Under the pieces are notes generated by a model, which saw only the letters and a program-made list of their open reading frames with translations, had not been told where the DNA came from and made no database searches. From an uncultured Dehalococcoidia bacterium (GTDB taxonomy: Bacteria > Chloroflexota > Dehalococcoidia > Lucifugimonadales > UBA1123), in assembly GCA_951812505.1 (NCBI GenBank), contig CATOSI010000003.1:620001-684000 (forward strand): DNA of 64,000 nt, in the 5' to 3' direction. The translations under genes were made by a program, and so were the position numbers. Shown piece by piece: positions 11,684 to 53,640 of the stretch. Position 1 is the stretch's first letter, and each line of letters opens with the position of its first letter.

Positions 11684-11719
11684 AAAAAGGACACCACACC
11701 CGCTAGGGGCGTGGTGTCC
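11684..11719 (-). terminator. Rho-independent terminator after the first DUF1501 gene
   Basis: On the minus strand a hairpin with arms GGACACCACGCCC and GGGTGTGGTGTCC, one mismatch, runs from 11719 to 11689 and is followed by TTTTT (11688-11684). It closes the DUF1800-NHL-DUF1501 transcript whose last gene stops at 11748. Confidence 0.88.
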
Positions 11720-11747: not shown

Positions 11748-12881
11748 CTACTTCGATACGAAGTCGAACTGCTCGAAGTTGCCGTTGGTGATGGACACGG
11801 GGTCCAGTCCCAGCCAGCGGTCAAGTATAGTCGAGTAGGTGAGGCGGAAGTCGTTGCTGAAGTGCATGTCGCCTTCCAGCTGGTCCTCGTCGCGCAGGGA
11901 CGGGAAGTCGCCGTAGAAGCCGCCATTCACGTCACCGCCGATTACGAAGGCCACTCCGCCCGAGCCGTGGTCTGTGCCCGCGCCGTTGTCCCTGATGCGC
12001 CGACCGAACTCGGAGAACATCAGCACCACGGTGTCCTTGTCCCTGTCGTGCTCCTTCAGGTCGTCCATGAAGTCCGCGACCGCCGAGGAAACGTCGTTCC
12101 ACAGCTTCGCGTGCGCCGCGAGTTCGTTCGCGTGGGTGTCGAAACTGCCGTGCTGAGTGTAGAAGATACGCGTCCCGACATCCGCGAACATCACCTGCGC
12201 TATGTTCTTCATGTTCTCGGCGATGGGATTGTCCGCGTACTCGATGCTGGACGAGTATGCAGCCGGGGCAGTCCTCAGAATGTCTGCGCCCTTCAGCGCG
12301 TCCATCCCAACCTGGCTGATGAACTGTGAGATGGTGTCCTTGCCTGACCCGCCGTATATCTGGGAGAAGGCTTCGAGGGCGATGGCGCGGGCTCGCTCGT
12401 CCTTGATGTCCGGCATCAGGCCGTAGGTGTCCAGGTTGCCGACCGAGGCGACCGGCACGTCCTTCGCGTACATTGCGCGGGGCAACCCACGTCCGAAGTT
12501 GACGCCTGTAACGACGTTCTCGCCCTTCGGATCGAGATCGCGCACCGCCTGTCCCAGCCAGCCTTCAGGGGCTATGTCGTTCGGCTCGGCGGTGTGCCAC
12601 ACGTCCATCGAACGGAAGTGTGACCTGTTCGGGCTCGGATAGCCGATGCCGTTGATGACGGCCACCTTGCCCTCGTCCCACAGCGACTTGATCGGCCCCA
12701 TGGCAGGATTCAGGCCCAGCTTGTCGTCCAGGTGAAGGACTTCGTTCTCGGGTATTCCGAGATACTGCCGGTTGTCGTAGTAGTTCTGGTCCGCGTAGGG
12801 AATCACAGTATTCAGCGCGTCGTTACCGCCGCTGAGCTGCAAGACCACCACATTCTTGTTGCCGTTGCCGTTCGCTGCCAT
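11748..12881 (-). CDS. DUF1501 protein (first cassette)
   Basis: A 377-residue protein that is all DUF1501, a family related to alkaline phosphatases and sulfatases. Conserved blocks include NVVVLQLSGGNDALNTVIP, SPNRSHFRSMDVWHTAEP, FYTQHGSFDTHANE, LMFSEFGRRIRDNG and GTDHGSGG. His/Asp residues in the last blocks would bind metal. Most DUF1501 proteins start with a Tat export signal; this one begins directly with the domain and has no signal, so it should be cytoplasmic. It is the third gene of a minus-strand DUF1800-NHL-DUF1501 operon, followed by a terminator. The reaction is unknown. A paralogue with the same blocks lies at 52320-53450. Confidence 0.9.
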   Translation of the reverse strand: MAANGNGNKNVVVLQLSGGNDALNTVIPYADQNYYDNRQYLGIPENEVLHLDDKLGLNPAMGPIKSLWDEGKVAVINGIGYPSPNRSHFRSMDVWHTAEPNDIAPEGWLGQAVRDLDPKGENVVTGVNFGRGLPRAMYAKDVPVASVGNLDTYGLMPDIKDERARAIALEAFSQIYGGSGKDTISQFISQVGMDALKGADILRTAPAAYSSSIEYADNPIAENMKNIAQVMFADVGTRIFYTQHGSFDTHANELAAHAKLWNDVSSAVADFMDDLKEHDRDKDTVVLMFSEFGRRIRDNGAGTDHGSGGVAFVIGGDVNGGFYGDFPSLRDEDQLEGDMHFSNDFRLTYSTILDRWLGLDPVSITNGNFEQFDFVSK

Positions 12882-12975: not shown

Positions 12976-14001
12976 TCACTCGCCATTCCTGCGATATATC
13001 TGTACGCGGTGCCGGTTGCTCTCGGTAACATACATGTGTCCATCAGAATCGAGTTTGACCGAGGTCGGCGCCCAGAAATACTTCTCGATATGAGACGACA
13101 CTTCGTGCGGGTCGTCGTTGAAGAACTCTATCTCCGGCTCCATATTGGCTCGTGACCGCGCCCCTGCCTCCTCCACGTTGATGGACAGAAATGCCTCCGC
13201 CCACTTGGAGTCGGTCGCCTCCCCGCGCAGCGTCTGGACGTGGCCGCCGTCCGTGTCGAAAATCACGATGCGCTCATTGCCCCAGTCCGCGACATAGACC
13301 ATGCCCGCTTCGTCAACCGCGACTGACGATGGCCTGTAAAGCTGTCCTTCACCCCGACCGGCGCCGCCGAACGAGCAGACGAACTCGCCGTCGCGCGTCA
13401 GCTTCTGCACTCGGTCGTTGCCCCAGTCCGCGACGTACAGGTACCCGTCCGGGCCGACGGTCAGGCCCCACGGGAGCTCGAATTCGCCATCGCCTTCCCC
13501 ATGTGAGCCGAACGCCGAAACGAACGCGCCGCCGCTGGTGAAAACCTGGATTCTGTGGTTGTGCTGGTCTGCGACGTAGAGCCTGTCTTCGCTGTCGAGG
13601 GCGAGGCCGGCGGGCCCGTCGAACTTGCCGGGTGCGCTGCCCGTCTCGCCCCAGTGCCTCAACAGGTTGCCCTCAGTGTCGAACACGTTGATCACGTTCA
13701 GGTCTTCGTCGCTTATGTAGATGTTCTCCCGGCTGTCCTGCGTGATGGCGACCGGCCAGATGAAATGACCCGGCTCCTCGCCGAACGAGGCGAAGGTGCC
13801 GTAGTACTCGCTGTCTATGTCGTAGATGGTCACCCGCACACCGCGAGTGTCTCCTTCCAGCGAGCGGCTTATCGTGTACAGCTTGCCGTCCTTGCCCACA
13901 AGCGTGTCCACAGGGTAATAGAACCCCCGCCCTTCCATGGTGGAGAGTCCGATGGTGTGGCTGTATTCTAGCCTTCCGGTTCCGATCTCGAGTGTGGTCA
14001 T
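12976..14001 (-). CDS. NHL-repeat beta-propeller protein (first cassette)
   Basis: A 341-residue protein made almost wholly of NHL repeats. At least five blades of the form GLALDSEDRLYVADQHNHRI and GLTVGPDGYLYVADWGNDRV are visible, each with the closing Q(V/K) turn, so it should fold as a single six-bladed propeller. No signal peptide or catalytic residues can be assigned; such proteins often scaffold a partner or bind a ligand. It is placed between DUF1800 (11 bases upstream) and DUF1501 (95 bases downstream), an arrangement repeated at 51207-52232 with a protein of the same length. A functional tie to those partners is therefore likely. Confidence 0.9.
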   Translation of the reverse strand: MTTLEIGTGRLEYSHTIGLSTMEGRGFYYPVDTLVGKDGKLYTISRSLEGDTRGVRVTIYDIDSEYYGTFASFGEEPGHFIWPVAITQDSRENIYISDEDLNVINVFDTEGNLLRHWGETGSAPGKFDGPAGLALDSEDRLYVADQHNHRIQVFTSGGAFVSAFGSHGEGDGEFELPWGLTVGPDGYLYVADWGNDRVQKLTRDGEFVCSFGGAGRGEGQLYRPSSVAVDEAGMVYVADWGNERIVIFDTDGGHVQTLRGEATDSKWAEAFLSINVEEAGARSRANMEPEIEFFNDDPHEVSSHIEKYFWAPTSVKLDSDGHMYVTESNRHRVQIYRRNGE

Positions 14002-14011
14002 TGGATCTCTC

Positions 14012-15454
14012 CTATGCCCTCTGGAATTCGTGCGTGGCCGCGATCATCTGCAAAAGCTGCGCCACTCTCTCCCGGTTCTCGTCGCTCAGTTCGGGATCGG
14101 CAGCCAATTCACCGCCGTCCGCCGCGTAGTCCACCAGCGACGCCCGCGTGTCGTCCGACACCGAGACCATGCCTATTTCGTCCAGGCAGCGGTCAACCAG
14201 CTCCGCCGGCCTGATGGACGAGCCACCGTTGGTGGCGACGCGCTCTATGATAGATCTGACCCCGGGATGGTCGGTGTTGCCGAGTTGACTGGAAGCAAAG
14301 TTCAGCCTCTCGACGAACGTGCCTGTGTCTATCCACTCCAGGCCCTCGTGCCAGCCCTCTACCGAGGGCGGATTGATGAGGTACTGGCCCATCCAGGTCA
14401 TCTGCTGCTGACGCTCGACGATCTGTCGCTTCGGCCTGTGGAACTCGCCGGTGAGCCGGAGCACGCCGGTGACGATCTCGGCGGGACTCTTCACGCGAGC
14501 GTACCAGGAGTCCTGCGACTTGAAGAATTCGGACGTGAACAGCACATCAAGCATGTGGCTGATGTCGTAGTCGCTGTCGAAGTACGCCTTCGAAAGTATC
14601 TCGATGGCCTCGGGGTCCTGCGGCTCAACGTAGGGCCACTGCGGCACGGGCGGTTCGTCCGCGACGAAGAAGTGGTACATATGCCGCGCGATGAACGCCG
14701 CCGTAGCGGGCTGGCGGCAGATTATGTCAACGATCTCCTCACCGTCGAAGTTGCCGCGCTGTCCCAGGAACTCCTTCTCGCCGTCGTCGTGGTCGTTCTC
14801 GTCGAACTCGAAGTGCCACGAGATGCGTCCATACGGCCAGATCGAATCGCGCTCTGCCCGGAGAGCCATATACTCCCGGTTCCCTATCGTCCACCCGGTG
14901 AACGCCCGCGACGCCTCCTTGATGTCGTCCTCCGAGTAGTTGCCCACACCCATCGAGAACAGCTCCAGCAGTTCTCTGCCGAAGTTCTCGTTGATCGCAC
15001 CCTTGTGGTTGTCGTGGTTGTCAAGCCACACGATCATAGACGGATCTCTTGCGAGTTCCAGCAGAAGAGTCCTGAAATTCCCCATGCCGTAGCGACGGAA
15101 CATCCTGATCTGGTCGCTCAACACCTTGCCGTTCGTTATCTTGGGGTATCCTGTGGCGAAAATCCCATGCCAGAACAGCGACATCTTCTCACGCAGCGCG
15201 TCACTGGATGTCGCCATCTTATACAGCCAGTAGGAGCCTGGGCTGATCTGCCCCATCATCCCCGACTGTTCGTGGTGATAGCGTCGGATCAGGTCGTCAC
15301 CCATCTCGCTGCGAGAGTCGGGATTCAGAAGCTCGCTCACCGTCTCTTCGTATCCCTTTTCGGCATACGTTTCGAGTTGACTCCGGTTCGCGCCGAACCC
15401 GGCGCGCCTCATCAGGTGTGCCATCAATTGCAGGTCTGCCGTTGCCGTCGTCAT
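14012..15454 (-). CDS. DUF1800 protein (first cassette)
   Basis: A 480-residue DUF1800 protein. Family blocks are AHLMRRAGFGANRSQLE at the N-terminus, LFWHGIFATGYPKI, WLDNHDNHKGAINENFGREL, ELFSMGVGNYSEDDIKEASRAFTGW and NPPSVEGWHEGLEWIDT. The function of DUF1800 is not known; it is found beside DUF1501 in many Planctomycetota, Cyanobacteria and Chloroflexota. It has no signal peptide, in keeping with its cytoplasmic-looking partners. ATG at 15454 follows GGGAGG by five bases. A 22-base palindrome lies about 110 bases upstream and may control the operon. Confidence 0.92.
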   Translation of the reverse strand: MTTATADLQLMAHLMRRAGFGANRSQLETYAEKGYEETVSELLNPDSRSEMGDDLIRRYHHEQSGMMGQISPGSYWLYKMATSSDALREKMSLFWHGIFATGYPKITNGKVLSDQIRMFRRYGMGNFRTLLLELARDPSMIVWLDNHDNHKGAINENFGRELLELFSMGVGNYSEDDIKEASRAFTGWTIGNREYMALRAERDSIWPYGRISWHFEFDENDHDDGEKEFLGQRGNFDGEEIVDIICRQPATAAFIARHMYHFFVADEPPVPQWPYVEPQDPEAIEILSKAYFDSDYDISHMLDVLFTSEFFKSQDSWYARVKSPAEIVTGVLRLTGEFHRPKRQIVERQQQMTWMGQYLINPPSVEGWHEGLEWIDTGTFVERLNFASSQLGNTDHPGVRSIIERVATNGGSSIRPAELVDRCLDEIGMVSVSDDTRASLVDYAADGGELAADPELSDENRERVAQLLQMIAATHEFQRA

Positions 15455-16527: not shown

Positions 16528-17743
16528 CAGGCTGCTGAAAAAAGCCGCATAGGAGGTCTTCCCTGAGTCTGTGGAGTAAAATAGCTCCACAAGCGACAAC
16601 AGAGGAGACCGTCCCATGAGAGGCAAACGCAACCCACAGTCCACTATGCTTGCCTTCGTCAACCTCGACGAACGAGTTCCACCGGACCACCCTCTTAGGA
16701 CTATCAAACAGGTCGCCGAGGACGTTCTCTCCCGCATGTCGGACGACTTCGACAGGATGTACTCCAGTGTCGGTCGAGCCTCCGTCCCACCCGAACGACT
16801 GCTGAAGTCTCTTCTTCTGATCTCCCTGTACTCGATACGCAGTGAGAGAGCATTCTGCCAGGAACTGGACTACAACCTGCTGTATCGCTGGTTTCTGGAC
16901 ATGGACCTTATGGAGCCGAGTTTCGACGCGACCGTGTTCACCAAGAACAGAAGAAGACTGCTCAGACACAGGGTGGGGAGGACCCTGTTCGAGGAGGTGG
17001 CGTACGAGGCTGACCGCCGAGGTCTCATGTCAGACGAGCGCTTCAGCGTGGATGGTACGCTGATAGAGGCTGCCGCGAGCATAAAGAGCTTCAGAAGACG
17101 GGATGAGGATGCTGACGATAACCCGAAGGGTCCGGGGGAAGGTGGAAGCCGTACGGAGGACTTTCGGGGGGAGAAGCTGAGCAACGAGACACACGAGAGC
17201 ACGACCGACCCCGAGTCCAGGCTGATGAGGAAGGGCAAGGGTAAGGAGGCGAAGCTGGTGTTCATGGCCCATGCGCTTATGGACAACAGGCACGGTCTTG
17301 TGAGCGACTTCCGACTGACCGAGGCCAATGGCATGGCAGAGAGGGATGCGGCGCTGGACATGTTGATCCGGATACCCGGTAGCCGCCGTCTGACTGTTGG
17401 AGCGGACAGGGGCTACGACAGCAGGGACTTCGTTGCCGAGTGCAGGGACCTGAACATCACTCCGCACGTGGCCCAGAAGAAGAGATGGTCTGCGATAGAC
17501 GGGAGGACGACCCATCATGCCGGGTATGCGGCGAGTCAGAAGGTTCGCAACCGTGTGGAGTCGATCTTCGGGTGGATGAAGACAGTGGGAGGCTTTCGTC
17601 GGAGTCGGTATCGCGGAGTGGAGAGAACCGGACTGTATGGGGAGTTGGTGGCTACTGCGTACAACCTGGTGAGAATGTCGAGACTGATAGCTGAGGAAGA
17701 GGCCAGAGTCCCCGTCTTCGCATAGCTCTGCCCAGGGCGAGGT
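16528..17743 (+). mobile_element. Insertion sequence A (IS5/IS1182-type)
   Basis: The left end begins CAGGCTGCTGAAAAAAGCCG at about 16528, the usual GGCTGCTGAAAAA start of this type of element. It interrupts the pentapeptide-repeat gene. The right inverted repeat was not found before the next transposase, so the element may be truncated or overlapped by element B. The given right edge is the end of the space before that gene, not a measured boundary. Confidence 0.6.
16616..17725 (+). CDS. IS5/IS1182-type DDE transposase (element A)
   Basis: A 369-residue transposase. The N-terminal DUF772 domain is seen in FVNLDERVPPDHPLRTIK and RSERAFCQELDYNLLYRWFL. The DDE catalytic residues lie in FSVDGTLIEA, LTVGADRGYDSRDFV and ESIFGWMKTVGGFRRSRYRG. 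A low-complexity insert (about residues 160-205) follows the first Asp. It is full length and intact. It starts at ATG 16616 behind GAGGAG. It would cut and paste its own element; no accessory genes are carried. Confidence 0.92.
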   Translation: MRGKRNPQSTMLAFVNLDERVPPDHPLRTIKQVAEDVLSRMSDDFDRMYSSVGRASVPPERLLKSLLLISLYSIRSERAFCQELDYNLLYRWFLDMDLMEPSFDATVFTKNRRRLLRHRVGRTLFEEVAYEADRRGLMSDERFSVDGTLIEAAASIKSFRRRDEDADDNPKGPGEGGSRTEDFRGEKLSNETHESTTDPESRLMRKGKGKEAKLVFMAHALMDNRHGLVSDFRLTEANGMAERDAALDMLIRIPGSRRLTVGADRGYDSRDFVAECRDLNITPHVAQKKRWSAIDGRTTHHAGYAASQKVRNRVESIFGWMKTVGGFRRSRYRGVERTGLYGELVATAYNLVRMSRLIAEEEARVPVFA

Positions 17744-46193: not shown

Positions 46194-47123
46194 CTAGTTC
46201 GTGTCCCTGATTCTTGGGTCGGCAAAGCCGTACATAATATCCACTATCAGCGCGGTAGCCACGTAGAAGAAACCGGACACCAGCACGGTCGCCTGCACCA
46301 GCGGCATATCTCGCTGGATGACTCCCTCGATCATCATCCTGCCCAGGCCGGGCCAGGCAAACACCTGCTCCACGACGATCGAGCCGTTCAGGAGCGCGGC
46401 GAGCGTCAGCCCTCCGAATGTCATAAGCGGAATGACCGCGTTTCTGGCGGCGTGTTTCCATATTACGATTCTCTCACGCATCCCCTTTACGCGCGCGAAC
46501 TTCACGAACTCGCTGTCCAGTATGTCCAGCATACTGGAGCGTCCCAGCCGCATCATGGCCGCGAGCGGCCCCAGCGCCAGCACACATGCCGGAAGGATGT
46601 AGTGGTCCGGCCCGCCTGACCCGTACACCGGCAGCCATTGCAAATACGCGCCGAACAGGATGACGACCATAATCGCCACCCAGAACTGGGGCGCGGCCAA
46701 CCCGAATATGGCGACAGCCTTGCCTATCTTGTCCGCCAGGGTGTCCCGTTTTACGGCGGATAAAATCCCCGCAGGCACCCCGATGATGAACGAAAGGAGC
46801 AGGCCCGCGGTGGCAAGCTGAAGCGTGGCGGGGATTCGCTCCATCAGCAGGTGCCGGGCCTCTTTCTGGCTGCGGACAGATTTGCCGAAGTCGCCCTTCG
46901 TGATCAGGTTCTTCATAAAGTCCAGGTACTGCACCAGGAACGGCCTGTCAAGACCTAGCCCCCTCTTGAGCTCCTCATAAACCTCGGGAGGGGCGTCAAT
47001 CCTCGCGGGTAGCAGCATCCTGACCGGGTCGCCCGTCAGGTGGACCGCTGAAAACACGACGAGGCTCAAACCGATTAGCGTTACCAGCGCCTCGAGAACT
47101 TTTCTTGTTATGTATCGTGTCAT
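46194..47123 (-). CDS. ABC transporter permease (DppB/OppB-like)
   Basis: A 309-residue, six-helix permease. The N-terminus ITRKVLEALVTLIGLSLVVF, the periplasmic stretch GDPVRMLLPARIDAPPEVYE, and the coupling helix EFVKFARVKGMRERIVIWKHAARNA define DppB. WPGLGRMMIEGVIQRDMPLVQ near the end is conserved. Second gene of the transporter operon, separated from the binding-protein gene by 137 bases that contain a stable hairpin. Confidence 0.92.
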   Translation of the reverse strand: MTRYITRKVLEALVTLIGLSLVVFSAVHLTGDPVRMLLPARIDAPPEVYEELKRGLGLDRPFLVQYLDFMKNLITKGDFGKSVRSQKEARHLLMERIPATLQLATAGLLLSFIIGVPAGILSAVKRDTLADKIGKAVAIFGLAAPQFWVAIMVVILFGAYLQWLPVYGSGGPDHYILPACVLALGPLAAMMRLGRSSMLDILDSEFVKFARVKGMRERIVIWKHAARNAVIPLMTFGGLTLAALLNGSIVVEQVFAWPGLGRMMIEGVIQRDMPLVQATVLVSGFFYVATALIVDIMYGFADPRIRDTN

Positions 47124-47210
47124 TTTAGCAGTCCGTATCGTCAGCTATTGACTTCCAGAGTCATCTAATAGAAACGCCGCCGATCACACGAATCACGGTT
47201 CATACAGTTC

Positions 47211-47238
47211 GCCCCGCTCCCTCGACAGGAAGCGGGGC
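47211..47238 (-). promoter_or_regulatory. Intercistronic hairpin after the binding-protein gene
   Basis: Arms GCCCCGCT (47211-47218) and AGCGGGGC (47231-47238) form a perfect eight-base GC-rich stem with a twelve-base loop. No T-run follows on the minus strand, so it is more likely an mRNA-stabilising or partial-termination hairpin that raises binding-protein levels over the permeases. Confidence 0.6.
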
Positions 47239-47260
47239 GCTTCTCTGTTAGCGAATGGTT

Positions 47261-49102
47261 CTAGTTGAACTCGATTGTCCACATGGCCGTGTTATATGTT
47301 ACGACTGGCCAGGGCTTCCAGCTTCCTGGCTTGATTCGCGGACCGAGACCCCAGGGCAGGTTCACGAAGAACGGGCTGAAAGCGTGGTTCTCCTCGCGCA
47401 ACTCGCCGTAAACCACCGGGAAGTTAGTCTCCCAAGCGTCAACTGTAACCTCGTTCACCAGCTTTTCGGTCACCAGTTCACTGAGGCGCTGGCATGTCGG
47501 GTCGCCATTCGGGTGCGCGTCCGATGTCCACTCAGCGTCGCAAATGCGCCATGCCTGTGCGCCGGCGGCGTAAGTGTACATCCCTCGCGTTATGCTAAGG
47601 CCGTTCCAGCGGGTTTCGTTCGTGCGAACCAGAACGCTGCCGGGCAGCTTGCGCTCGTTCCACTGCTGTCTAACCGATGTCGCGTCGCCCGTCCTCACCG
47701 TCGTATCGAGCCCAAGCTCGTTGTTCCAGGTTGTGCTGAACACTTCGGCGAGCTGCGGCTGGAGCGGAAGGTCGCCCGCCTCCCATGTCCAGATGTCGAA
47801 CGGCGGAATATCTACTCCCGCCTCTTCCAGAAGCTGCTTCGCCTTTTCCAGGTCGTGAGGACGAGGATCCGCTACGCCGTCCCTGTATCCGATGGTGCTC
47901 GGCGTCACATGCTGCCAGCCCTTGGGTATTGCCATGTCGCGGTTGTACAGGCTGTCAATGATCGCCTCTTTGTCTATGGCGTACTCCAACGCCTGTCGGA
48001 CGCGCTTGTCATAACACCACAACTCGGGATCCCAGCAGTCCACGAATACTATCCAGGAATAGGCCGCTTCAGGCTGATAGACGACCTGACCGCCCGCCGC
48101 CTCGATGTCCTCGAGCAGGAACACGTTCGCCTCGATCATGTCCGCCTGTCCGGCCTGCAGACCCGCGATTCGCGTGGCGGCTTCCGGCACTACCTCGGTT
48201 ATGTACTTCGCGAACTTGGGCCGGCGGTCTTCGTCATACCCATTCGCGGGCTGGTAGAAGTAGTCGTCGAACCGCTCCAGTTCGAACTTCTGACCAGGTA
48301 TCTGGTCGGAGAACATCATCGAGCCGCAACTATTAGGGTTGTTCTGGTACGCCTGGTCGTCGGTCTGGGAAATATCGCCGCCCGCGGCATTGTATCCGGT
48401 TACCTCTTGCCAGTGGTCGGCGTTGAATATCTGTCCGTCCTCGCCCTGAGAGTTCTCCGACATCAGGAAGGGCGTATCGGGTCGCGGGTTCTTGAACGAC
48501 AGCCGGAGTGTCTTGTCATCCACCTTCGTGATGGCCTCGCTAACCTGGGCGAGCGCAATCGAGGTTGGGTCAACACCCGGACGATTCAGTGCTGCCTCCC
48601 CAAATGCGAACTCAAAGCGCCACCAGGCGTCATCTACGGTAATATCGCTCCCGTCGTGCGCCTTGATGCCGTCCGCGATGGTGAAGTCAATCGTCCTGCC
48701 GTCTGAACTAACAGACCAACTGTCGGCCACGCCGCGCGTCAGAGTTCCACCGCCAGCGCCGCCAACGAGATTGCAGTTGAAATAGCGGGACACCTTCATG
48801 AACTCGGCTCCGCCCGAGCGAGTTGGGTCCCAGCCGCCGGTCGCGCCAACGTTGGCTACGAGCAGCGTAAGCGTTTCATCAGTAAGTCCGCTGTCCATTT
48901 CGGACTTAGTAGTCTCCTGCATCGTGGTCGCGGGCTGAGCCGCAGCCGGAACCGCCGTCGCGGGCGCCGGCGCTGCGGGCGCCGGCTGGGCCGGAGCCGC
49001 GGGCTCATCCTCGCTCGTGCACGCCAACACGAGCATCATCGCTATGGCCAGGCCTCCGATGATCAGAAAGAGCCTTGCGCCGTCACTGGTGAAAGATTTC
49101 AT
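47261..49102 (-). CDS. Extracellular solute-binding lipoprotein, family 5
   Basis: A 613-residue exported protein. The signal peptide ends at a lipobox (MMLVLACTSED), followed by an Ala-Pro-rich linker of about 40 residues. The SBP_bac_5 domain includes GRTIDFTIADGIKAHDGSDI and VRQALEYAIDKEAIIDSLYN. It captures peptides or similar ligands outside the membrane and feeds the permeases downstream. The start is ATG 49102, six bases after AAGGGG; an upstream ATG at 49108 directly abuts that site. First gene of the operon. An inverted repeat lies about 100 bases before it. Confidence 0.92.
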   Translation of the reverse strand: MKSFTSDGARLFLIIGGLAIAMMLVLACTSEDEPAAPAQPAPAAPAPATAVPAAAQPATTMQETTKSEMDSGLTDETLTLLVANVGATGGWDPTRSGGAEFMKVSRYFNCNLVGGAGGGTLTRGVADSWSVSSDGRTIDFTIADGIKAHDGSDITVDDAWWRFEFAFGEAALNRPGVDPTSIALAQVSEAITKVDDKTLRLSFKNPRPDTPFLMSENSQGEDGQIFNADHWQEVTGYNAAGGDISQTDDQAYQNNPNSCGSMMFSDQIPGQKFELERFDDYFYQPANGYDEDRRPKFAKYITEVVPEAATRIAGLQAGQADMIEANVFLLEDIEAAGGQVVYQPEAAYSWIVFVDCWDPELWCYDKRVRQALEYAIDKEAIIDSLYNRDMAIPKGWQHVTPSTIGYRDGVADPRPHDLEKAKQLLEEAGVDIPPFDIWTWEAGDLPLQPQLAEVFSTTWNNELGLDTTVRTGDATSVRQQWNERKLPGSVLVRTNETRWNGLSITRGMYTYAAGAQAWRICDAEWTSDAHPNGDPTCQRLSELVTEKLVNEVTVDAWETNFPVVYGELREENHAFSPFFVNLPWGLGPRIKPGSWKPWPVVTYNTAMWTIEFN

Positions 49103-49204
49103 GTTCATCCCCTTGAATACAAGCGTCCGAATCGGACTCACTTCTTATACAGGTCGTCCGTACACTGCAATTACGATCCCTTTTTGGGAAGCCAAACCAA
49201 GAAT

Positions 49205-49723: not shown

Positions 49724-51181
49724 ATGACGACCGTTCGAGAGAAGCAAGACGTTGCGCTTATGGCACACCTGCTCAGGCGCGCCGGATTTGGGGCCACCGC
49801 CAGAGAGCTCGATCACTATATGGGCATGAGCTACGAAGAAGCCGTCGAGGAACTCCTGAGCGCCCGGCCCGCACCCAACGAACTGCCCGTTGACCTGATC
49901 CGCCGCTACCACGTGGACCAGTCCGACCTTAGAAACGGTCAGGCCGCCGCGGCTCAATGGGTTTACAGAATGGTCAACACCGACGCCGTCCTGCCTGAGA
50001 AGATGTGCCTGTTCTGGCACCGTGTATTCGCCACCGCCGCGACCAAGCTGATTCAGGCTCGCATGGTCACAAATCAGGTTGATATGTTCCGCGAATACGG
50101 CATGGGCAACTTCCGAGACCTCCTGGTTCAGTTGTCCAGAGACCCCGCAATGCTCATGTGGCTCGACAATCAGGACAACCACAAAGAGTCCATCAACGAG
50201 AACTACGGACGAGAGATACTCGAACTCTTCTCTATGGGAGTGGGCAACTACACCGAGGACGACATCAAAGAGTGCTCCCGCGCCTTCACCGGCTGGCGCG
50301 TCGTCAACCCCGACTATATGTCCATCAAGATGCGCAACAACACCGCGCGGCCCTACGGCTATATTGCCTGGCAGTTCGAGTACGACGACGAAGACCACGA
50401 CCACGACGACAAGAATTTCCTGGGCGAGGTCGGCGACTTCAACGGCGAGGACGTCGTTAACATCATTTGCAGGCAGCCTGCCACCGCGCGATTCATAGCG
50501 CGCCACCTGTACCACTTCTTCGTCGCCGACGAACTTCCGGTTCCACAGTGGCCGCACTTTGAGCCCAAGGACCCCGAGGCTATAGAGATAATGGCTCAGG
50601 CGTACTTGGACTCAGGTTACGACATGACCGCAATGTTGAGGGCTATGTTCAACTCCGACTTCTTCAAGGCCGAAGCCTCCCGATTCGCCCGAATCAAGAG
50701 CCCGGCGGAGATGGTTGTCGGAACCTTGAGAATCGCGGGACCGATCTCTCTGCCTTCGACCGACACTTACGCCGCTGCGGGAGCCTGCGCCGCAATGGGC
50801 CAGGGCCTGCTGAATCCCCCAAGCGTGGAGGGCTGGCAGGGCGGCAGTGAATGGATAAATACCGGTTCCTACGTACAGCGAGTCAACTTCGCCAGCCGCG
50901 TACTCAACAGCCCCGACAAGAGCGGAATCCGATCCATAATCGAGCGCATCGAAGATATGTCGGGCGGACAACCGATGTCCTCCGAGCATGTCGTTGACGC
51001 GGTCCTGGACATTCTCGGCCCGCTGCCCGTCTTGGACAGCACCCGGCAGGGTCTTGTCGAATACGCCTCCAAGTGGGGCGACTTCGACTTCGCCGACGAT
51101 GAATCTGCCGCCCGCGCAGCCATGAACATAGTAACCCTGATCCAGCTTGTCGTTACCACACAGGAATACCAGCTGGCTTAG
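49724..51181 (+). CDS. DUF1800 protein (second cassette)
   Basis: A 485-residue DUF1800 protein, clearly paralogous to 14012-15454. Matching blocks are AHLLRRAGFGATARELDHY, LFWHRVFATAATKL, WLDNQDNHKESINENYGREI, ELFSMGVGNYTEDDIKE and NPPSVEGWQGGSEWINT. It has no signal peptide. AAGGAG lies nine bases before ATG 49724. It opens a plus-strand cassette with an NHL protein 25 bases downstream and a DUF1501 protein after that. The reaction is unknown. Confidence 0.92.
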   Translation: MTTVREKQDVALMAHLLRRAGFGATARELDHYMGMSYEEAVEELLSARPAPNELPVDLIRRYHVDQSDLRNGQAAAAQWVYRMVNTDAVLPEKMCLFWHRVFATAATKLIQARMVTNQVDMFREYGMGNFRDLLVQLSRDPAMLMWLDNQDNHKESINENYGREILELFSMGVGNYTEDDIKECSRAFTGWRVVNPDYMSIKMRNNTARPYGYIAWQFEYDDEDHDHDDKNFLGEVGDFNGEDVVNIICRQPATARFIARHLYHFFVADELPVPQWPHFEPKDPEAIEIMAQAYLDSGYDMTAMLRAMFNSDFFKAEASRFARIKSPAEMVVGTLRIAGPISLPSTDTYAAAGACAAMGQGLLNPPSVEGWQGGSEWINTGSYVQRVNFASRVLNSPDKSGIRSIIERIEDMSGGQPMSSEHVVDAVLDILGPLPVLDSTRQGLVEYASKWGDFDFADDESAARAAMNIVTLIQLVVTTQEYQLA

Positions 51182-51206
51182 CGCGTCAAAGACCGAGGAT
51201 TGCACT

Positions 51207-52232
51207 ATGGTTACACAAACAAGGACAAAGAACTTCACCCTCAAACCCGTGACCACCGTCGGCTTCGTCGCCGACCAAGGCGGTCGCGGCTTCCATCTGC
51301 CTACCGACTTCGTGATTCGCTCTGACGGGAGAATCTTCGTCGCCAGTCGCAGTAACACCACCGCCTTGGACATCGTGGGAATTCAGATGGCGACGATAGA
51401 GGACGAATTCTTCGGACAACTGGGCGCGTATGGCAGTCAGGCAGGAAACATGATCTGGCCCTCTGCGCTCGCGCTCGACAGCGAAGACAACCTCTACCTC
51501 GCCGATGACTTTCTCCAGCGGGTCACCGTCTACGACCGCGACGGCAACGTGACCGGTACATGGGGAACGCAGGGTACGGCGGATGGCGAATTCGATGGCA
51601 TATCCGGCCTGCTCTTCGACGCAGACGACAACCTGCTACTGGTTGACCACCGCAACAACAGAATCCAGAAGTTCACTAAGGACGGGCAGTTCCTCGACAA
51701 ATGGGGCGGTCCCGGCAGCGGTGACGGAGAATTCGATCTCCCCTGGGGCATCAGCCAGGACAGCGAGGGATTTCTGTACATAGCCGACTGGCGCAACGAC
51801 CGCATCCAGAAGTTTACGCAGGATGGTGAGTTCGTCGCCAAGTTCGGCGAGTCCGGCGACGGAGAAGGTCAGTTCAACCGGCCCTCTGGTCTGGCGGTGG
51901 ATTCCGACGGCAACATGTATGTCGCCGACTGGGGAAATCAGCGTGTCCAGGCTCTGGACTCGGAAGGCAACGTCATCCAGTCGCTTCGTGGCGACGCGAT
52001 ACTAGGTTCCTGGGCAGTTGAATACCTCAACGCCAACGCCGACGAACTCGAAGCGCGCTCCAAGTTCGTCCCCGTTTTCGAAGTGGACACCGACGACCAG
52101 AATGAGGTTTCGGCAAGAATCGAACCATACTTCTGGGATCCCGTAAGGGTCGCGCTCGACGACCAGGAACGAATCTATGTCCTGGAGACCAGCCGCCACC
52201 GTTTCCAAGTTTACGAAAAGGTGGCCGAATGA
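51207..52232 (+). CDS. NHL-repeat beta-propeller protein (second cassette)
   Basis: A 341-residue NHL propeller, the same length as its paralogue at 12976-14001. Blades include ALALDSEDNLYLADDFLQRV, LLFDADDNLLLVDHRNNRIQ, GISQDSEGFLYIADWRNDRI and GLAVDSDGNMYVADWGNQRV. The last part (VALDDQERIYVLETSRHRFQ) closes the propeller. The frame is open upstream into the DUF1800 gene, but ATG 51207 with GAGG eight bases before it matches the paralogue's start. No signal peptide. Confidence 0.92.
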   Translation: MVTQTRTKNFTLKPVTTVGFVADQGGRGFHLPTDFVIRSDGRIFVASRSNTTALDIVGIQMATIEDEFFGQLGAYGSQAGNMIWPSALALDSEDNLYLADDFLQRVTVYDRDGNVTGTWGTQGTADGEFDGISGLLFDADDNLLLVDHRNNRIQKFTKDGQFLDKWGGPGSGDGEFDLPWGISQDSEGFLYIADWRNDRIQKFTQDGEFVAKFGESGDGEGQFNRPSGLAVDSDGNMYVADWGNQRVQALDSEGNVIQSLRGDAILGSWAVEYLNANADELEARSKFVPVFEVDTDDQNEVSARIEPYFWDPVRVALDDQERIYVLETSRHRFQVYEKVAE

Positions 52233-52319
52233 CGCTCCGGAAACAACAGCGCAGACCGTCCAGTCTCTTATCACTGAAAATCAATAACTGATAACTACCA
52301 ACCAGGAGGCAAGTCCGAC

Positions 52320-53450
52320 ATGGGTGAAGCGAAGAACAGAAAACTGGTCGTGGTACAGCTCTCCGGGGGCAACGACTACCTGAACTGCGTCGTGCCTTAC
52401 ACCAACGCCGAGTACATAGACAATAGACCCAACGTCCGAATCGAGCAGGAAGACGTGATCCCATTAGACGATCAGTATGGGTTCAATCCTGCGATGGGTC
52501 CAATTAAAGACCTTTACGATGATGGCAAGGTCGCGATAATCCACGGCGTAGGCTACCCGGTGCCCAACAGGTCACACTTCCGCTCCATGGACATCTGGCA
52601 CACCGCCGAGCCCACCAAGGTCGGCGACGAGGGCTGGCTCGGCCAGGCGGTGCGCGAAATGCACCCCGATGGCGACAACGTTGTCGCTGCCGTCAACTTC
52701 AGCGCTGCCCTGCCCAGGGCTCTCGTAGCCAAGAATGCCCCCGTTGCGTCGGTTTCCGATCTCAGCAGCTACGGCCTTCTCAGCCACATGGACGGTGGAG
52801 ACCAGCGAAGCGAAGCGCTTGAAGCCTTTCGCAGCATGTACACGCACGCCATAGGTAGTGGCCCCGTGATGGACTTCCTCAGCCAGACAGGTCTGGACGC
52901 ATTGAAAGGCTCCGATATCCTTAGCGGCGTGCCCGATAAGTACTCCTCGAATGTCGAATATGCGTCTAACCCCTTCGCCCAGCGAGCCAGGGACACAGCA
53001 CAGGTGTTGACCGCCGACATCGGCACCCGAATCTGCTACACTCAGCACGGCAGCTTCGATACGCATACCAACGAAGTCGCGCTCCACAAGACGCTTTGGG
53101 GACACGTGGCAGGCGGAATCTACGACCTATACACCGACCTGAAAGAGCAAGACGCCAGCGAGGACGTGCTGATCTTTGTCTTCTCGGAATTCGGAAGGCG
53201 TGTCAAAGACAACGGCAACGGCACCGACCATGGTTCCGGCGGTGTCGCCTTTATGATTGGCGACAGCGTGAATGGCGGCAACTTCAGCGAATACCCGTCG
53301 CTCGACCCCGACAAACTCGTTGAAGGCGACCTCGCCTTCAACCTTGACTTCCGCAGCGTCTATACCGAAATACTGGAAGACTGGCTCGAGGTCGATCCGA
53401 GGCCCATCGTCAAGGGAGACTACGAGAAGATCGGAGCTTTGGCGGTTTAA
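52320..53450 (+). CDS. DUF1501 protein (second cassette)
   Basis: A 376-residue DUF1501 protein with the same blocks as 11748-12881: LVVVQLSGGNDYLNCVVPY, VPNRSHFRSMDIWHTAEP, CYTQHGSFDTHTNE, FVFSEFGRRVKDNG and GTDHGSGG. The likely metal ligands are kept. Like its paralogue it starts at the domain with no Tat or Sec signal, unlike most of the family. AGGAGG precedes ATG 52320 and a strong terminator follows at 53517. The cassette is thus a closed three-gene unit. Confidence 0.92.
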   Translation: MGEAKNRKLVVVQLSGGNDYLNCVVPYTNAEYIDNRPNVRIEQEDVIPLDDQYGFNPAMGPIKDLYDDGKVAIIHGVGYPVPNRSHFRSMDIWHTAEPTKVGDEGWLGQAVREMHPDGDNVVAAVNFSAALPRALVAKNAPVASVSDLSSYGLLSHMDGGDQRSEALEAFRSMYTHAIGSGPVMDFLSQTGLDALKGSDILSGVPDKYSSNVEYASNPFAQRARDTAQVLTADIGTRICYTQHGSFDTHTNEVALHKTLWGHVAGGIYDLYTDLKEQDASEDVLIFVFSEFGRRVKDNGNGTDHGSGGVAFMIGDSVNGGNFSEYPSLDPDKLVEGDLAFNLDFRSVYTEILEDWLEVDPRPIVKGDYEKIGALAV

Positions 53451-53516
53451 CCTGAGTCCCTGGTTTCTTTCTCGATCTGAATGAAACCTGCGGGCCTGAT
53501 AACTGAAAAGAGTTAG

Positions 53517-53550
53517 AACACCCCCGGACCTTCATTCCCGGGGGTGTTTT
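53517..53550 (+). terminator. Rho-independent terminator of the second cassette
   Basis: Arms AACACCCCCGG (53517-53527) and CCGGGGGTGTT (53538-53548) are perfect over eleven bases, with a ten-base loop and a TTTT run ending at 53550. Confidence 0.92.
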
Positions 53551-53640
53551 GCTTCTTAGAATTAGCTCAAAATAGGCTTGCAATCTACTGAAAAACGGTT
53601 CATTATATCCCGCAGACAATTTCAGGAGGTTACGTCTGCG

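Follow-up and report, generated by a model that had tools for sequence, protein, structure and literature searches.

An unusual gene arrangement occurs twice in a 64,000-nucleotide stretch of DNA (here called the window; contig CATOSI010000003.1, positions 620,001 to 684,000) from an uncultured bacterium of the Chloroflexota related to SAR202: in each copy, designated unit A and unit B, a gene for an NHL-repeat beta-propeller lies between genes of the families DUF1800 and DUF1501. This locus raises the question of whether the three genes form a conserved cytoplasmic module, and what its proteins would do. No assigned function for DUF1800 or DUF1501 appeared in the literature found, and pairs of the two families (PF08811-PF07394) are described, in the accessible text of PMC5122149, beside bacterial chitin synthases, with the DUF1501 protein predicted to be exported by twin-arginine translocation (Tat). 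The window units are best seen as members of a real, conserved, many-copy module, a branch of the DUF1800-DUF1501 kind that lacks export signals and is linked to a propeller.

Gene content of the window units

49724..51181, plus strand: DUF1800 protein of unit B, 485 amino acids, without export signal (Pfam PF08811, E = 2.5e-106)
51207..52232, plus strand: NHL-repeat beta-propeller of unit B, 341 amino acids (Pfam NHL, E = 4.4e-31, 4 stretches)
52320..53450, plus strand: DUF1501 protein of unit B, 376 amino acids, without Tat signal (Pfam, E = 6.1e-24), a predicted alkaline phosphatase superfamily hydrolase
53514..53551, plus strand: terminator-like hairpin of unit B, 14-bp stem, 10-nucleotide loop, T-run at the 3' end (−24.4 kcal/mol, z = −5.0)
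14012..15454, minus strand: DUF1800 protein of unit A, 480 amino acids, without export signal (Pfam, E = 1.2e-99)
12976..14001, minus strand: NHL-repeat beta-propeller of unit A, 341 amino acids (Pfam NHL, E = 2.2e-35, 4 stretches)
11748..12881, minus strand: DUF1501 protein of unit A, 377 amino acids, without Tat signal (Pfam, E = 4.8e-31)
11689..11719, minus strand: terminator-like hairpin of unit A, 13-bp stem, 5-nucleotide loop, T5 tail (−27.1 kcal/mol, z = −6.1)

All six open reading frames were present in the order and at the lengths originally described (485/341/376 residues on the plus strand, 480/341/377 on the minus strand). Family assignments exceeded Pfam cutoffs for DUF1800 (356.8 and 334.7 bits; cutoff, 26.1; profile positions 1 to 419 of 419 in both proteins), for the NHL repeats (PF01436; 105.8 and 119.3 bits; cutoff, 20; four stretches in each propeller), and for DUF1501 (PF07394; 85.3 and 108.7 bits; curated cutoff, 27). 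No signal peptide was found on any of the six proteins, in agreement with the original prediction, and their starts leave no room for one. In five of the six genes the start codon is the first ATG, GTG, or TTG past a stop, so that upstream extension with these codons is impossible, and the sole possible extension, from a TTG at 51147 located 20 codons upstream of the unit B NHL start, adds no signal-like segment.

The window units are two of 17 modules

Two copies proved to be an undercount. The source genome (3.8 Mb in 6 contigs) was found to encode 17 DUF1800 proteins, 17 NHL proteins of module type, and 10 DUF1501 proteins. Genes were called in 14 stretches around DUF1800 matches outside the window and searched with the window proteins. 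An NHL gene lay within a few genes of each DUF1800 gene (17/17; 323 to 349 codons, with one called at 267), all 10 DUF1501 genes fell in DUF1800-NHL loci, and no signal-like N terminus occurred among the predicted proteins of the 17 modules. Gene order, which is the same in the two window units, varied: DUF1800-NHL-DUF1501 was present in 3 modules (both window units and L040), DUF1800-DUF1501-NHL in 6, and DUF1501-DUF1800-NHL in 1, while 7 had no DUF1501 gene nearby. Units A and B had also been interpreted as variants for two substrates; they are two of 17 paralogues. The two copies are old paralogues, with DUF1800 proteins that share 51% identity and fall in different subclades of the tree, with orthologues elsewhere.

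Propeller-linked proteins form separate clades without export signals

Among 39 useful stretches from outside the family of the source bacterium, 10 were linked to NHL and had DUF1800 model scores above 500, and 29, hand-chosen from listed matches rather than taken at random, lacked NHL and scored below 400; DUF1501 was present in 28 of these 29. A DUF1800 tree was built from 148 of 169 matches, the others being fragments or lacking a readable start or stop, and these were thinned to 89 rows. It set the 66 NHL-linked rows apart from the remaining 23, with one label change and a Shimodaira-Hasegawa-like approximate likelihood ratio test (SH-aLRT) support of 100. Window-type DUF1800 proteins formed their own clade, outside the NHL-less pairs of the Tat-exported type. 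In the DUF1501 tree, 39 and 25 rows were separated, also with SH-aLRT of 100 and with two label changes, the second because L233, counted as NHL-less, is an NHL locus with a split DUF1800 gene. (Both were quick trees with SH-aLRT as their only support measure. In L233, from genome G301, and L234, from G306, DUF1800 is split into two frames beside the NHL gene, through either decay or assembly error.)

Export signals followed the same division. By a home-made rule requiring a twin-arginine motif and a hydrophobic stretch (not SignalP), 23 of 28 DUF1501 proteins from NHL-less pairs of this phylum were Tat-like, in line with the earlier statement that DUF1501 proteins usually carry such a signal, compared with 1 of 74 NHL-linked DUF1501 proteins, this one being an overlong frame (L220). 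For DUF1800, the corresponding counts were 13/25 and 0/131, and none of 109 NHL proteins was positive. Because TatC is encoded in the source genome, the missing Tat signals are meaningful, and with export signals missing, the proteins likely work inside the cell. To the extent that sequence can show, the idea of a conserved cytoplasmic module survived both tests originally set for it: upstream starts added no export signals, and placement of NHL between DUF1800 and DUF1501 recurs beyond this genome. One NHL-linked DUF1501 protein (L160, 5849-6976) has an NRRDFL motif at its N terminus without a hydrophobic stretch, possibly a relic of a decayed Tat signal.

DUF1800 and NHL genes occur and multiply together

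A profile search of genome contigs with a 17-member DUF1800 alignment yielded 575 confirmed stretches. In 79 of the best 80, which were used here, an NHL gene lay within about 4 kb of DUF1800, and the sole exception (L161) begins at a contig edge. Record titles for these 80 loci named Chloroflexi or Chloroflexota, Dehalococcoidia, Dehalococcoidales, or SAR202, save for one Rhizobium. (The latter, L175, is titled Rhizobium sp. Q54, a metagenome-assembled genome, and its module branches among Chloroflexota; the bin may be mislabeled or mixed, or the module transferred.) Locus counts throughout contain near-duplicates, and some loci represent one genome met twice (G305 is VXRN01 and G307 is OY282441). 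NHL was scored as lacking for 4 of 137 NHL-type DUF1800 genes, three with a partial NHL gene at a contig end and the fourth being L161. Placement of NHL between DUF1800 and DUF1501 was not confined to the source genome; it was found for 31 of the 137 and is implied in Candidatus Entotheonella.

Genome-wide occurrence was assessed in 117 genomes, a sample of the larger number in the order of the source bacterium, with DUF1800 scored to about 13 per genome. At the preset E value of 1e-50, NHL was found in 74 genomes and DUF1800 in 79. Two groups were set aside: 3 genomes whose NHL matches were weak (best E between 4.8e-54 and 5.4e-72, the next being 6.6e-91) and 8 with DUF1800 of the other type (1e-97 to 1e-110; next, 1e-187). 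NHL-type DUF1800 and strong NHL then occupied an identical set of 71 genomes. Copy numbers of the two per genome were also correlated (rho = 0.96, or 0.95 in the 58 genomes below the scoring limit). Module-type DUF1501 was present in 69 of the 71 core-bearing genomes, not being found in G351 and G380, and totaled 342 copies versus 545 for NHL. Genomes of the source bacterium's own family had 17, 17, 17, 13, 18, 10, 1, and 2 DUF1800 matches, where figures for G301, G302, and G306 include split or partial frames.

The unit B DUF1800 protein had relatives in Candidatus Entotheonella palauensis (76% identity) and Candidatus Entotheonella factor (75%; P0033 and P0034). P0034 and the near-identical P0032 and P0043 (8.0-Mb contigs) fell inside the starred 20-row set read as the unit B clade, drawn next to unit B itself and its close orthologues, although their exact neighbor was not firmly supported. 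In Ca. E. factor, the tags for DUF1800 (ETSY1_15035) and DUF1501 (ETSY1_15045) leave room for one gene, which we infer to be NHL, helped by a 74% identical NHL protein named Candidatus Tectomicrobia. These similarities suggest that a unit-B-type module was likely transferred horizontally between phyla. No DUF1800-NHL fusion was present among 120 homologues listed (8,000 scored), with DUF1800 as the sole precomputed domain. A DUF1800-family protein is also annotated in an uncultured Caudovirales phage (BFVD A0A6J5M749; template modeling score of 0.71 to the DUF1800 model).

Evidence for joint inheritance came from protein distances within the source genome, which correlated between DUF1800 and NHL (r = 0.66, 17 modules) and, in the 10 modules with DUF1501, between DUF1800 and DUF1501 (r = 0.88) and between NHL and DUF1501 (r = 0.80), all three values exceeding every one of 10,000 label permutations. 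Within two subgroups, the DUF1800-NHL correlation was 0.65 (10 of 10,000 permutations as high) and 0.85 (32 of 10,000). An 8-residue DUF1800 insert and a 16- to 17-residue NHL insert always went together, with 9 of the 17 modules having the two and 8 having neither. Across all loci, insert states agreed in 84 of 88 scoreable pairs (of 137, once fragments and rows lacking a legible start or stop had been dropped), the 4 exceptions being similar loci with a different NHL insert. Duplication of linked genes whose partners are not exchanged would produce such matched distances and inserts; they fit a physical complex and do not prove one. Judged by their sequences, DUF1800 and the propeller are the constant core of the module, occurring, multiplying, and carrying matching inserts together.

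Short-type NHL proteins mostly end in conserved tails (for example, L031, L032, L034, L030, and L041), one kind resembling EPQFN[IL] and the other R-x-P-[TI]-L; these are possible docking tails. A constant fourth component was rejected after clustering of 591 neighbor genes within 4 kb of 124 NHL-type loci (near-duplicates included); the most recurrent clusters were, by sequence, short-chain dehydrogenase-like (15/124 loci) and luciferase-like monooxygenase-like (13/124). The 40 flanking proteins scanned against Pfam were likewise a mixture, and the family met most often, luciferase-like monooxygenase, lay beside 3 modules.

Predicted chemistry of DUF1501 and DUF1800

A function could be predicted for one partner only. 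The unit B DUF1501 protein is predicted to share a fold with the alkaline phosphatase superfamily (nucleotide pyrophosphatase/phosphodiesterase [NPP] type, e.g., Xac NPP 7mw8). Among residues that may serve as metal ligands and nucleophile, D19, S85, H86, E290, D303, and H304 were invariant in 62/62 rows, as were D247 and H249 in each of the 61 rows not gapped there. The predicted function is that of a metal-dependent phospho- or sulfo-ester hydrolase. The protein differs from NPP in its low identity (14%), in matching no NPP profile (Phosphodiest, PF01663; no match up to E of 0.1 for either window DUF1501), in ligand spacing, and in its likely cytoplasmic location.

The AlphaFold2 model of unit B DUF1800, a member of a widespread family, was helical, with a predicted local distance difference test score of 93.5, and a whole-chain search of the PDB gave no fold match. 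An N-E-N-x2-R-E-x2-E motif (N158, E159, N160, R163, E164, and E167) and D180 were invariant, and an H-D pair (H225 and D226) nearly so. DUF1501 clusters of planctomycetes have PSD1/DUF1553-type partners, and DUF1800 matched PSD1/DUF1553 below the cutoff of 28.5 bits, at 13.3 bits (E = 0.056) for the window protein and 24.6 bits (E = 1.7e-5) for the L040 paralogue. As a bridge to the planctomycete clusters this family was rejected: 2 of 301 genomes of the phylum matched at an E value of 0.001, none above the cutoff, and one match was the source genome's own DUF1800. A bolder proposal, which we consider doubtful, is that DUF1800 is an enzyme with an unrecognized helical fold and that DUF1800-NHL is the catalytic core of an undescribed cytoplasmic system, with DUF1501 as hydrolase partner in cis or trans; this system would have multiplied to as many as 17 copies in single SAR202-type genomes and been transferred to Entotheonella.

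Weighing a proposed cytoplasmic assembly against its alternatives

The explanation we favor, to which we would give slightly less than an even chance, is that the window carries 2 of 17 signal-less DUF1800-NHL modules (10 with DUF1501) whose products likely assemble in the cytoplasm, where the propeller would serve to hold both DUF1800 and the substrate and DUF1501 would act as the metal-dependent ester hydrolase. An ancestral exported DUF1800-DUF1501 pair may have lost its signals and gained the propeller partner, and the module would have multiplied in SAR202-type genomes, with parallel copies serving different imported substrates. DUF1800-NHL pairs lacking their own DUF1501 would borrow one in trans, because nearly all core genomes keep at least one.

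Several observations count against this explanation. The 71/71 match rests on score gaps drawn after the lists were seen, and linked duplication alone can yield co-inheritance. Of the 137 DUF1800 genes of NHL type, 46 had no DUF1501 within 4.5 kb; some of these 46 lie at the end of a contig. Four of the 17 modules are not clean operons: genes on the opposite strand separate DUF1800 from NHL in L028 and L039 (both without a nearby DUF1501), a DUF502 gene does so in one of the two L038 modules, and a 0.3-kb gap does so in L029. The DUF1501 ligands depart from the classical spacing (D-x-H plus a separate D-H, with F291 after E290), leaving catalysis unproven. Also, 12 of 25 NHL-less DUF1800 proteins were themselves Tat-negative, so the missing signal says less about DUF1800 than about DUF1501.

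Linkage could instead reflect only co-duplication and co-regulation of separate proteins that act at successive steps of one pathway and form no complex, a somewhat unlikely reading that draws on the three main gene orders, on the split pairs in L028 and L039, and on the fact that whole-module duplication predicts both the distance correlations and the matched inserts. The identical genome sets and closely tracking copy numbers, the agreement of insert states, and the inconstancy of other neighbor genes weigh against this reading, and propellers of the NHL kind are commonly binding scaffolds. Export by an unrecognized route, with the proteins doing outside the cell what the Tat-exported pairs do there, would fit the homology with those pairs and the conserved NHL tails, but is improbable given that no hydrophobic N-terminal segment was found in 74 DUF1501, 131 DUF1800, and 109 NHL proteins (apart from the overlong frame) despite TatC, that the L160 motif looks as a decayed signal would, and that no constant neighbor could carry a signal. 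An existing hydrolase could also have expanded into paralogues in the ordinary way, with no new function and an incidental propeller. This would resemble the many expansions reported for SAR202 genomes in the text of PMC6946804 but is equally improbable, as the propeller is more constant than DUF1501 (17/17 versus 10/17 modules, and likewise by genomes and copies) and carries inserts that correspond to the DUF1800 ones.

Relation to known systems

The chitin synthase-linked pairs have the same two families adjacent and, in the accessible text of PMC5122149, no function assigned; unlike them, the present pairs lack the Tat signal, nearly always include NHL, form a separate clade, occur in many copies per genome, and do not always have DUF1501 adjacent. 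In Planctomycetes, available portions of PMC4452313 describe DUF1501 gene clusters with signal peptides on several proteins, in contrast to the modules here; the likeness lies in a clustered DUF1501 and in weak PSD1 matches of DUF1800, both below the Pfam cutoff. A propeller gene near DUF1501 is also reported in Planctomycetes, with WD40 rather than NHL repeats and with DUF1800 unmentioned in the accessible text of PMC5587647.

SAR202 bacteria are proposed to process resistant marine organic matter, and cultures of them have been reported (PMC10444878). Joint expansion of the module's families was already glimpsed in the SAR202 COG correlation matrix of Saw et al. 2020 (COG5267, COG4102, and COG3391; PMC6946804), whose main text, figures and supplements aside, describes no gene linkage, constant pair, missing signal, clade, or mechanism. 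The present results offer a concrete gene module behind these three unexplained COGs. In a literature text search (outside paywalled papers, figures, and supplements), DUF1800 and DUF1501 were seldom mentioned together, and DUF1800 with NHL, or SAR202 with 'NHL repeat', never. With a constant partner, no export signals, and as many as 17 natural copies in one genome, the presumably soluble propeller-linked branch offers a tractable route to the function of both DUF families.

Terminator-like hairpins and flanking genes

Stable hairpins with T-runs were found 3' of both last genes, as had been claimed, and 0 of 200 shuffles matched their stability in either unit; the T-run of unit B lies partly within its stem. 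A simple terminator scan recovered the unit A hairpin in full and unit B only as a 6-pair core, because the 10-nucleotide loop exceeds its loop limit, and the number of sites was not above that in shuffles in either hairpin region. Near unit B, a short motif lying between genes occurred at chance level (6 matches, a number reached by 15 of 100 shuffles). On the strand opposite unit A, a transposase gene (DDE_Tnp_1, 16616-17725) lies some 1.2 kb upstream of that unit. Immediately upstream of unit B, and again on the other strand, is a dipeptide/oligopeptide-type transporter (46194-49108; SBP_bac_5 at 47261-49108 and permease at 46194-47123). SBP_bac_5 also adjoins module L028, and the text of Saw et al. 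(PMC6946804) names dipeptide transport COGs in the same paragraph as those of the module.

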